From Spirochaetota bacterium (GTDB taxonomy: Bacteria; Spirochaetota; JAAYUW01; JAOAHJ01), in the NCBI GenBank assembly GCA_026415295.1, contig JAOAHJ010000023.1, positions 124,001 to 188,000 of the forward strand: 64,000 bases of DNA. Reading direction: 5' to 3'. The translations under genes and the position numbers were made by a program. Positions 12,060 through 15,535 of the stretch are shown piece after piece (position 1 is the first letter of the stretch; each line of letters starts with the position of its first letter). The notes under the pieces are model-generated. The model was not told the DNA's origin and did no database searches. It was given only the letters and a program-made list of their open reading frames with translations.

Positions 12060-14138
12060 CTAGAAAGAAAGTTGTGCATTAACAGTATAAGATATGGATG
12101 GCTTATATCCACCTTGTCCATCTGGGACAAAGAATACATTATAACCAATTATTATAGCTATGCCTTTATCAACTTCATATCCAATTTTTAAATAAACAAA
12201 CAGATTATCTGTAAAATTCTCAAAAGGCTTTGGAACAAATACATTCCAATTAACTTTTTTTACTGATAATTCACCAAATACTTTTGGAATAAGATCTTTT
12301 TCAAGTATTAATCCCAATATCATTGTATCTCCTAATACGCCAATAAATGAAGAAGGTAAAGTGAAGTAATGAACATATGATACATCGCCATGAATTTTCT
12401 TTAATACATTAATAGTTAAATTAAAGTAAAATCCAGAAATTATAGTTTCAATATTAGTTGGATTTATAATTTTATTTTTATAGTAAAGATAAATATTCTC
12501 CTTATTTATATCATATAAATTATTAAACATTTGAGGTAGGAAGTCATTATAAATCATTCTATATTCTGCTCTGTAGGTACCAAAAAAATAAGATCCTCTA
12601 ACTCCAGCAAAAACACCAAATCCTTTTAAAATACCAATTTCTCCATTTTTTCTTATGTAATAATTGGTACCTATATCACCAAATAAGAATAATGAAAAGA
12701 AATTATTATTTGGGATTACAGGTAAAATTAATCCAGCAGCAACACCACCTATAACAGGATTATTATTTGTTGAGTCGTATAAAGGCTCAAGATCTCCTAT
12801 AACCTCTATTCCTACTTGCAATGGAAACTGTTTTTTAAATGGTTTTAATGCTGGCCTTAATCCTACTACAGAAGGTTTCAATATATTATTAGTCATAATA
12901 TCCATAGCAAAAACTTCTGATTCAAATTTTAACTGAACACCCAAATATCTTATAGCTGGAAAATTAATCATATTTGAATAATAATACATATTTAAACCAT
13001 TTCCTATTATAAAATCATCAATGCTTCCAATCTTAAAATAAAATGGATCATCATGCTCATTTATCCTTAAATATTTAATTTTAGTCACAATACTATAAAG
13101 TGTTTTAAATGTATCTTGATAAGAAGCAAAACTAAATATGTATTCATTATAATTATACCAATTTTTTGGTTCAAAAAGTCCACCTTTTGCTGGATCAAAT
13201 ATTATTGGAGCATAAATTCCAATACCAACATTCCCAAGAGCAAATTCAGTATTTATAGTAAAAAGTGACCATATCTTACCATCAATTACTATTGTTCCAA
13301 AATCTCCAATCATATTTAAATTTTTTTCTAACCATTCTTCAAAAGCTGATTTTACTTTCTTCTCAGTTTCCTTTTTTACCTGTTCCTTTTTTTGCTCAGG
13401 TATTTGAACAGTTTGAGTTTGTCCAGTTGTTGTATCTATAGATTCTACAGGTTCAGGAGAATCAGTTTTCATATTTTGTAAAAAGTTGTTTTTAACATCT
13501 TCTGGAATATTAACTACTTGAGACATTGTTTGTCCAATTATTGATGCCATTTTACCAGCTTCAACCATTATCTGGTTTGTTAATGATGGTCCAAATGCTA
13601 CTAAACCTTTAAATACATAAAGATCAGTTTTACCATTTTGTGGATCTACTGAAATACCAAGGTCTGTCCCTCTAACAGATGCTACTCCATTTGGAGTATT
13701 GATTTGAAAAGTTGAATCTTGACCTTTAACTTTTGCAACAATAGCTCTTACAGTTCCTGCAACAATATTAAAAACTGATTTTTTTGTTTTCTTATTTTGA
13801 TCAATAATCTCTTGTAATTCTTTAATCTCAAAAATAGATTTTTCTGCAATCTTAATTACAGTACCATCATCAAAAACAAGCTCTACTGAAGATTGAGCTT
13901 TTGTTTCAACTTTATAATTAGCATATAAAAGCATATCTACTTTAGCAGTTATAGGTTGTGCTAAGGGATTACTCATATCATATATGAGAACTTCTCCTAC
14001 TGGGTAAACTATCTTAACAGCAACCTTTTTAGTTTGCCCCTGTGAAGAAGTAGATTGCTTTTCTTGTGAGTATATAGTAATATTAATTGTAGTTACAAAC
14101 AAAAATATAAGCAAAATCATTAATATTATTTTTCTCAT
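12060..14138 (-). CDS. FecR-domain protein fused to a porin-like barrel
   Basis: 692 residues. Signal peptide 1-25. Residues about 45-205 form a FecR-type domain: 'GEVLIYDMSNPLAQPITAKVDMLLYA' then 'SVELVFDDGTVIKIAEKS', 'NIVAGTVRAIVAKVKG' and 'INTPNGVASVRGTDLGI'. A Pro/Glu/Lys linker (about 215-270) follows. The last 410 residues are strand-rich, aromatic and end 'SYTVNAQLSF', as outer-membrane barrels do. That barrel part is clearly related to the next gene upstream (14210-15535): both share an 'IG.I.D..(I/L)G.GL.M..YSN' block followed by 'FP.IR..G'. FecR domains usually act in sigma-factor signalling or are extracytoplasmic scaffolds; here no sigma factor is adjacent. SD AGGGGG precedes the ATG. 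Confidence 0.75.
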   Translation of the reverse strand: MRKIILMILLIFLFVTTINITIYSQEKQSTSSQGQTKKVAVKIVYPVGEVLIYDMSNPLAQPITAKVDMLLYANYKVETKAQSSVELVFDDGTVIKIAEKSIFEIKELQEIIDQNKKTKKSVFNIVAGTVRAIVAKVKGQDSTFQINTPNGVASVRGTDLGISVDPQNGKTDLYVFKGLVAFGPSLTNQIMVEAGKMASIIGQTMSQVVNIPEDVKNNFLQNMKTDSPEPVESIDTTTGQTQTVQIPEQKKEQVKKETEKKVKSAFEEWLEKNLNMIGDFGTIVIDGKIWSLFTINTEFALGNVGIGIYAPIIFDPAKGGLFEPKNWYNYNEYIFSFASYQDTFKTLYSIVTKIKYLRINEHDDPFYFKIGSIDDFIIGNGLNMYYYSNMINFPAIRYLGVQLKFESEVFAMDIMTNNILKPSVVGLRPALKPFKKQFPLQVGIEVIGDLEPLYDSTNNNPVIGGVAAGLILPVIPNNNFFSLFLFGDIGTNYYIRKNGEIGILKGFGVFAGVRGSYFFGTYRAEYRMIYNDFLPQMFNNLYDINKENIYLYYKNKIINPTNIETIISGFYFNLTINVLKKIHGDVSYVHYFTLPSSFIGVLGDTMILGLILEKDLIPKVFGELSVKKVNWNVFVPKPFENFTDNLFVYLKIGYEVDKGIAIIIGYNVFFVPDGQGGYKPSISYTVNAQLSF

Positions 14139-14209
14139 TTTAAACCCCCTATTAACTATCTAATTTATATAATTTTATTTTTATTAATTTATTATATGTT
14201 TTATTATAT

Positions 14210-15535
14210 TTAGAATTGTATTCCAGTAGTAAAATAGCTTGTTGAAACTCTCACTACCTGCCCATTTTCAATTTTATATTTAATTTCATAAATTAAAGAA
14301 ATAGAAGAAGTTCCAGAACCTGGAATAAGCTTAATTTCCATTTTTAAATAAGAATTCAAAAGAGCTTGAGGATTACTCCAATTAAAAATATCTCCAAATT
14401 TTTCAATGTTTCCCCTAATCATGTATAGATTAAAAGAAAGGAAAGGTATAATTCCTTGATTTAAACCAATCGCTCCAATAAAATAAGGTTTGATTGTTGA
14501 AGAACCAAAAGGACCAGAGTATTCAGCATAAGTATATACAATTTCTTGTAAGATGTTCAAAAAAGCAAAAATTCTCCATCCAGTATAGCCTGGAATCAAA
14601 TCAAGTGTACTATATTTTGTGTTTCTAATATCTTTATTTTCATAAAGTAAATCAAAATATGGTGCTGTAAATTTATCTTTATAGCTTAATATTTCAGCAC
14701 CCAAACCTATAATTTTGAAAAATATCGAATGAATACCTGTTTTCAATCCAGATCCTTTACCCTTTATAGAAGCAATGTCAAAAAAATATAATGCACTTAT
14801 AGATTCATTATTTATTAAAGGGATTTCAAAATCCAAGCCTGTTATTGAAACAACATCTGTAGGGGAACTAGAATCTGAATATGGAGCAGTTGATAGAGGA
14901 TCAGTATCAGATACTATTGAAAAACCAACTTTAAATTGATTAATAATTGGGATCTGTAAAAATAAGAGCGGTCTTACATAGAATCTAAATCCTATTATAT
15001 CAATGTCCTTTATATCATCAATAAATGATTCAAATCCGATATATGGGAAATTAAATAGAGCCCCATCTAAATCAAAAGCAAAACCAGTTTTTCTTATTTC
15101 TGGGAAATATAATCCATTTGAATAATTCTGCATAATAAGACCATGCCCTAAAGTAGCATCTTCTATAACACCTATTTTAGCATAAATTGGCTCTCCCTTA
15201 AAACCATATTGAACAAATAATATTTTATTCATCCAGTCTTGCCATGTCGACCAACCAACATATTTATCATTCTCTTTTCTTAAATTACCATTAGAATCTA
15301 ATTCAAAATATAAATCAAACCCAAAAGATATTTTTCCAAATGTAAAAGTAGGTCTTAAAGATATTGTAAAATATGTTATACCATTTATAACTGAATTTCC
15401 AAAAAACATATTAAATTTAAAAAAATCTTTGTTATTATCCTGATTTTCTTGTGCAAAAATATTCAAACTAAAAAATAGTAAACATATTAAAACTACAATA
15501 AAAAAATAATTTAATCTTTTTCTTATAAATATCAT
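14210..15535 (-). CDS. Putative outer-membrane protein, paralogue of the barrel half of the next gene
   Basis: 441 residues. Signal peptide about 1-29 ('FIVVLICLLFFSLNIFAQ'). The mature part is strand-rich with no internal membrane helices and ends 'VSTSYFTTGIQF', a terminal-Phe barrel signature. It lacks the FecR domain of its neighbour but carries the same block: 'IGVIEDATLGHGLIMQNYSN', 'FPEIRKTGF', and a 'D.(D/E)PL' turn near residue 215. It is not assigned to a named family. SD AAGGAGAG precedes the ATG at 15535; the FecR gene starts 71 bases later, so the pair are probably co-transcribed. Confidence 0.65.
   Translation of the reverse strand: MIFIRKRLNYFFIVVLICLLFFSLNIFAQENQDNNKDFFKFNMFFGNSVINGITYFTISLRPTFTFGKISFGFDLYFELDSNGNLRKENDKYVGWSTWQDWMNKILFVQYGFKGEPIYAKIGVIEDATLGHGLIMQNYSNGLYFPEIRKTGFAFDLDGALFNFPYIGFESFIDDIKDIDIIGFRFYVRPLLFLQIPIINQFKVGFSIVSDTDPLSTAPYSDSSSPTDVVSITGLDFEIPLINNESISALYFFDIASIKGKGSGLKTGIHSIFFKIIGLGAEILSYKDKFTAPYFDLLYENKDIRNTKYSTLDLIPGYTGWRIFAFLNILQEIVYTYAEYSGPFGSSTIKPYFIGAIGLNQGIIPFLSFNLYMIRGNIEKFGDIFNWSNPQALLNSYLKMEIKLIPGSGTSSISLIYEIKYKIENGQVVRVSTSYFTTGIQF

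Follow-up and report, generated by a model that had tools for sequence, protein, structure and literature searches.

What is an extracytoplasmic FecR domain, which in the textbook case belongs to an inner-membrane protein, doing on the same polypeptide as a large beta-barrel, and why does a gene for the barrel without that domain lie next to it? The question is raised by two adjacent genes in a stretch of 64,000 nucleotides from a Spirochaetota genome (GenBank assembly GCA_026415295.1, contig JAOAHJ010000023.1, positions 124,001 to 188,000; this whole stretch is referred to as the window), one of which encodes a 692-residue fusion of a FecR domain to a barrel and the other a 441-residue protein that is barrel only. 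We consider it somewhat probable that the two are a pair of outer-membrane channels, one of them carrying a tethered periplasmic docking module. Both open reading frames (ORFs) lie on the minus strand where the sequence-only reading of the window had placed them, and their features are as follows.

14210..15535, minus strand: barrel-only gene, 441 residues, ATG start, first of the pair (ORF; model with a predicted local distance difference test [pLDDT] of 84.6; paralogy)
15065..15187, minus strand: most conserved block of the 441-residue protein, residues 117-157, motif GHGLIMQNYSN...P, a long loop region (21 relatives)
14213..15421, minus strand: barrel of the 441-residue protein, residues 39-441, 20 predicted strands (model; OprD/Occ fold matches with Z up to 17.3)
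14139..14209, minus strand: intergenic stretch of the pair, 71 base pairs, with AGGGGG resembling a ribosome-binding site before the fusion gene (read by eye)
12060..14138, minus strand: FecR-barrel fusion gene, 692 residues, ATG start, second of the pair (ORF; model with pLDDT 85.4 and a predicted template modelling score [pTM] of 0.60)
14064..14138, minus strand: N-terminal signal peptide of the fusion, about residues 1-25, of signal-peptidase-I type by eye (model helix at 2-19)
13536..14036, minus strand: extracytoplasmic FecR domain, residues 35-201 (PF04773 at 76-180; fold match to PupR, 6ovk_R)
13320..13535, minus strand: flexible linker, residues 202-273 (pLDDT below 50 at 228-261; low conservation in 24 relatives)
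12063..13319, minus strand: fusion barrel, residues 274-692, 20 predicted strands (model; fold matches with Z up to 15.9)
12939..13043, minus strand: residues 366-400 of the fusion, the conserved barrel block that corresponds to the one in the 441-residue protein (G371, G381, N389, F393, P394 and G400 invariant in 24 relatives)

The FecR domain of the 692-residue protein is recognised by Pfam (PF04773, residues 76-180, E 2e-15, 57.5 bits where the cut-off is 24), as it is in 24 of the 24 members of the alignment of its relatives. In an AlphaFold2 model built on a 40-row alignment, this part is predicted to have the fold of the anti-sigma regulator PupR (6ovk_R: Z 17.3, 2.5 Å over 139 residues) and of a putative anti-sigma factor from Parabacteroides (BDI_1681, 4m0n: Z 16.7); at the sequence level, a search of the PDB with the 692-residue protein gave weak matches only (best E 0.025), and a profile reached PupR at E 0.013. 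The segment that follows had been described beforehand as a Pro/Glu linker: a linker it is (about residues 202-273, at low pLDDT), but with 6% Pro, 18% Glu or Asp, 14% Lys and 35% Gln, Asn, Ser or Thr it answers to that name less well than several of the relatives do. Across the 24 fusions the linker is 51-102 residues long and its composition varies between families, and mean pairwise identity is 0.297 over the FecR domain, 0.200 over the linker and 0.311 over the barrel; we therefore regard the FecR domain as conserved and the linker as a probable spacer. A cysteine falls within residues 11-35 in six of the 24 fusion relatives, with no lipobox that is clear by eye.

Structure prediction of both proteins, at a mean pLDDT of 85.4 for the fusion and 84.6 for the barrel-only protein (pTM 0.77 for the latter), gave a barrel in each, of about 420 residues in the fusion and with 20 strands apiece, as counted from printed strand lists with strands shorter than six residues omitted. 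A closed membrane-spanning barrel, behind a putative signal peptide read by eye, is predicted with high confidence, and the nearest solved folds are themselves barrels. Top-ranked for both are the OprD/Occ porins of Pseudomonas and Acinetobacter, whose overall fold is alike (best Z 15.9 for the fusion and 17.3 for the barrel-only protein) but which share 5-11% identity with either barrel at a root mean square deviation above 5 Å; no OprD-family Pfam match was found at E up to 1. AlgE, TOM40, VDAC, Wzi and others follow, likewise at 5-11% identity, and absences from these lists were not counted as evidence. Neither Pfam nor NCBIfam offers a family that matches the 441-residue protein at E up to 1. 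A pore function is plausible on the strength of the predicted fold.

The two barrels are paralogous. BLASTP aligns the 692-residue with the 441-residue protein at E 4e-12 (25% identity over 227 residues), and a Smith-Waterman alignment of the barrel parts scores 195, a value reached by none of 500 shuffles (mean 47.6, standard deviation 7.4, maximum 81) and to be compared with 49 for a reversed-sequence control. The sequence-only reading had extended the similarity to the whole of the neighbour; taken from these two sequences, the match spans only about half of each barrel, whereas profiles built from the relatives match nearly the whole of it. With barrels predicted and the C-terminal halves significantly similar, neither of the two outcomes that would have undone that reading came about. 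Residues invariant at matching places in both alignments (matched by eye) are N140/N389, P145/P394, R184/R428 and D210/D449, and among 21 relatives of the 441-residue protein G122, G130, G132, N140, P145, G151 and D157 are invariant or nearly so. Judged from these alignments, the 441-residue protein is a barrel-only paralogue of the fusion.

The same early reading had called such a molecule unusual, which holds against the textbook inner-membrane FecR and fails for the architecture, since its suggested search of other spirochaetes finds a full-length fusion (a single match running from model position 25 or lower to 673 or higher) in at least 44 of 296 Spirochaetota genomes and at least 23 family codes, with further examples in records of three other phyla. 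Some match to a profile of the 24 fusions, at E up to 0.001, occurs in at least 234 of the 296. A first genome scan with the 692-residue protein had found no relative; single-sequence searches of 100 genomes gave matches in 66 with the 692-residue query, many of them FecR-only proteins, and in 49 with the 441-residue query. The pair itself is conserved: in at least 38 of the at least 44 genomes with a full-length fusion (G036 among the 38), the gene immediately upstream on the same strand encodes a barrel-only protein. The fusions of G014, G043, G060, G103, G146 and G244 have no barrel-only gene in that position; in G060 the contig ends beside the fusion, and in G244 a different contig has a barrel-only gene at its end. 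In the GC-rich relatives L109, L112 and L119, long spurious ORFs overlap the fusion gene, and because of them a simple longest-ORF gene call missed it.

Beyond the Spirochaetota, one scan of named genomes gave 45 loci. Fourteen of these with a FecR-barrel fusion bear the titles Cloacimonadota, Tenebribacter or Cloacimonas (one is truncated at a contig end), and further fusions come from a Calditrichaceae record (L095) and a Neomarinimicrobiota record (L101). Barrel-only proteins occur in records titled Armatimonadetes or Armatimonadota, KSB1, Calditrichota, Ignavibacteriales, Ignavibacteria, Ignavibacteriae, Bacteroidetes and Margulisiibacteriota, and in one Acetofilamentum. These records are metagenome-assembled genomes, and mis-binning may affect single ones; the Cloacimonadota fusions are numerous and agree with one another. 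No separate FecR gene was found beside the unfused Cloacimonadota barrels in the flanks examined.

A quick tree of 82 barrel segments (87 before identical rows were removed; segments shorter than 330 residues were excluded, and support comes from the Shimodaira-Hasegawa-like approximate likelihood ratio test [SH-aLRT] only), the details of which are unsure because several branches are long, has three groups. Group 1 (support 96) holds 24 Spirochaetota fusions and one barrel without a FecR match (from G012), and group 2 (support 93) holds 30 Spirochaetota barrel-only rows; the similar groupings of families within the two are as expected from an old duplication inherited together, as far as this tree can tell. 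Group 3 (support 88) comprises 27 rows from Cloacimonadota and other phyla, together with three proteins resembling the leptospiral protein ImpL63 (see below), the Spirochaetota fusions of G013 and G146, and the barrel-only proteins of G074, G116 and G188. Given the starred branches, the 'fused' label must have changed at least five times; gain or loss of the FecR domain has thus happened more than once. Two genomes deserve separate mention. The group 1 exception in G012 (L171 8595-10430) is a 611-residue relative of the fusion whose N-terminal 200 residues have no FecR match, and in it the same barrel may carry another kind of N-terminal domain. In G146 there are two FecR-barrel fusions (L172 8699-11218 and L173 9059-11293), which fall in different tree groups and neither of which has a barrel-only gene next to it.

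The link to ImpL63 arose when one barrel relative gave an E of 3e-15 with the NCBIfam family NF047543, which bears the name 'cytoplasmic membrane protein ImpL63'. Nine of 28 barrel relatives match this family at E up to 0.01, the window protein not among them, and neither window protein matches it at E up to 1. Searching 60 genomes gave matches in 22, none of the 60 exceeding the curated cut-off of 1000 bits. The weak matches are to barrel-only genes and fusion genes in other genomes, and the strong ones (491-711 bits, E 6e-214 to 4e-147) are in three genomes of one family code, G007, G030 and G040, which the strength of the match suggests are Leptospira or close kin.

L160 8825-10504; L161 9973-11589; L162 9075-10802: ImpL63-like proteins (NF047543 match)

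These three proteins differ from the fusion in having about 540-575 residues and no FecR domain, and no FecR match lies near their genes within the 20-kb stretches examined. Compared as a profile with the barrel-only family, they align over 366 columns (probability 99.5, E 5e-23), and with the fusion family at probability 98.0 and E 1.6e-13. Going by these profile comparisons, the barrel family is homologous over most of the barrel to proteins that match ImpL63, which is a statement of homology and not of membership in NF047543. The original description of ImpL63 is said to have appeared in Infection and Immunity (IAI) in 2002.

The proposal that we favour combines these elements. The pair would be paralogous outer-membrane barrels, probably co-transcribed. 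Order, strand and spacing are what point this way, since promoter-like sites number 31, no more than the 32.6 of shuffled sequence, and there are only a few terminator-like ones (3, against 1.0). Each ORF is preceded by a purine-rich stretch resembling a ribosome-binding site (read by eye). Both proteins would be exported by their signal peptides and inserted in the outer membrane with N- and C-termini in the periplasm. Long conserved loops bearing the common asparagine, proline, arginine and aspartate would fold into the lumen and set selectivity, and both barrels would therefore act as channels. The FecR domain of the fusion would hang in the periplasm on its linker of 50-100 residues and dock a periplasmic or cell-wall partner, and the barrel-only sister would be either the same type of channel without the docking module or a partner in a mixed complex. 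A periplasmic scaffold, the role first put forward for the FecR domain, is one of several that the data allow.

Several observations weigh against this proposal. The fold matches are generic, on the evidence of the models, and mean a large beta-barrel and no more; the 20 strands come from lists and not from coordinates, so that 18 are possible and the count is best read as 18 to 20. Fused and unfused barrels alternate in group 3 of the tree, from which it follows that the barrel does not need the FecR domain. There is no constant third gene beside the pair in 31 Spirochaetota surroundings (the window, 20 stretches, L063, L068 and eight more, some of them cut by contig ends; L065 and G006 were treated as one genome), and we therefore name no partner. 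Finally, the homologue ImpL63 carries a published inner-membrane label and is poorly biotinylated at the surface (PMC2698987). In that paper ImpL63 is the reference inner-membrane protein in detergent fractionation and a negative control of surface biotinylation (PMC2698987), and in a second paper it likewise serves as an inner-membrane marker, undetected in a detergent-phase outer-membrane preparation (PMC2780356). The detergent-insoluble fraction does not by itself place ImpL63 inside, because known leptospiral outer-membrane proteins, including OmpL1, also remain largely insoluble according to the first paper (PMC2698987). A barrel with buried loops could explain the poor biotinylation of ImpL63, and in the light of the homology its published inner-membrane location deserves re-testing.

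Among the alternatives, the best supported is that the fusion is chiefly an outer-membrane tether, in which the FecR domain binds peptidoglycan or a wall-bound protein and the barrel mainly anchors the outer membrane, as in OmpA or OmpM. The long flexible linkers suit such a role, and the barrel-only model has a fold match to OmpM1, an attachment porin (8bym, Z 14.1). OmpM of Veillonella likewise joins a barrel to an N-terminal periplasmic part, which in OmpM is an SLH domain; Pfam finds in the fusion and its relatives FecR only, and no OmpA, SLH or other peptidoglycan-binding domain. Of 18 other FecR-containing ORFs, 10 were scanned; three have FecR joined to an OmpA domain, which speaks for the tether, and one (L186) to a BamB-like propeller. 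The three (L182 649-3270, L183 903-3623 and L184 579-3059) are large proteins with FecR at the N-terminus, OmpA at the C-terminus, and domains of Ig-like or CHU_C type as well, and because both FecR and OmpA are present FecR is no substitute for OmpA there. We conclude from these architectures that FecR in Spirochaetota is a general envelope module. OmpA-type domains are found in 12 of the 12 genomes searched, though some of the matches may be MotB-like proteins; the fusion is therefore no replacement for them, and such a role, which we also considered, is unsupported. Weighing both sides, we regard the tether as rather unlikely.

A second alternative is that the pair is part of a larger outer-membrane machine together with a giant beta-rich protein encoded upstream. 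Such a protein (1269-1788 residues, the shortest, of 1269, being cut by a masked stretch) lies directly upstream of the pair in seven of the 31 genomes and in five family codes (G006, G039, G046, G008, G141, G129 and G202), and iterated searches show these proteins to be homologous. But of 13 genomes searched with one giant protein, five encode it at another place and four have no match, namely the window genome (G000), G001, G002 (among the nearest members searched in the window's order) and G010, and the family has no convincing Pfam, NCBIfam or PDB match. We therefore consider a shared machine very doubtful. Giant proteins of about 1570-1790 residues are encoded at L063 1930-7242, L116 3863-9229, L109 10916-15784, L176 12439-17664, L177 11961-16868 and L178 2974-7692. 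A likeness of the giant protein to SprA of type IX secretion was considered and set aside, as no match in Pfam, NCBIfam or the PDB supports it.

The other neighbours of the pair vary. In the window it is preceded, in the order of transcription, by a response-regulator gene (recognised by Pfam) and by cheA and cheD (read from translations), and followed by lepA (Pfam) and then gap and pgk (read from translations). A link to chemotaxis was considered and rejected: che genes precede the pair in the window, as they do in the three genomes of its order (cheB in G001 was recognised by Pfam, and the remaining che names were read from translations), but the next genes differ in other families, so the adjacency is no rule. 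Elsewhere the neighbours include GGDEF-TPR, RsmF-like methyltransferase, flgG-like, flgJ-like and mutL-like genes (the last three identified by eye).

The FecR domain also invites the question of signalling of the FecA/FecR type, in which a sigma factor would learn through it what state the barrel, or some other receptor, is in. Regulators of the FecR/PupR kind have an extracytoplasmic FecR domain of the same fold as that of the fusion and bind an STN domain; the fusion differs from them in its attached barrel and in lacking a sigma-binding domain and a second periplasmic subdomain, the one with which such regulators complete their binding to the signalling domain of the receptor. An N-terminal sigma-binding domain followed by a membrane helix was looked for and not found: nothing but the short helix at 2-19 comes before the FecR part, and Pfam gives no other domain above cut-off. 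The boundaries given for PupR in PMC9249621 put its periplasmic subdomains at 110-238 and 250-324. The FecR part covers PupR 111-251 only, which is the first of these, and after residue 226 the linker and barrel follow. The N-terminal part of the fusion also resembles two Leptospira FecR lipoproteins, LipL45 (NF033165, E 5.8e-14) and Lsa33 (NF047849, E 3.7e-12), but it scores far below the curated cut-offs (52 bits where 350 are required, and 46 where 420 are), and the matches end at residue 234, before the barrel. Signalling of this type seems to us most improbable, for although the FecR part shares the fold of PupR and BDI_1681 and TonB plug domains are present in 11 of 12 fusion genomes searched, the fusion has no sigma-binding domain or second membrane helix and matches only the first PupR subdomain, an STN domain (PF07660) was matched in three of the 12 fusion genomes (one over cut-off; misses are possible with so short a domain) and not in the window genome, and the pair is flanked by lepA and a response regulator rather than by a sigma factor.

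We return to the outer-membrane channel pair and what it would mean. Our literature searches, with most subscription papers outside their scope, found no title or abstract describing a FecR-barrel fusion; by these searches, we are dealing with a conserved and apparently undescribed family and not with a freak molecule. The wider claim, that the pair and ImpL63 are members of one undescribed superfamily of outer-membrane channels that extends across phyla, with FecR as a periplasmic docking arm and not a sigma regulator, may as readily prove wrong as right. If it is true, ImpL63 would be an outer-membrane protein, and some of the controls in leptospiral fractionation and surface studies would need to be re-read. 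FecR used apart from sigma regulation also means that automatic annotation along the lines of 'FecR, iron regulation' would be misleading. Few spirochaete transmembrane outer-membrane proteins have been characterised, as was stated for Leptospira in a 2009 paper (PMC2698987), and a pair found in at least 23 family codes, whose barrels in the window proteins match nothing in Pfam or NCBIfam, is a candidate for a basic function of the spirochaete envelope.

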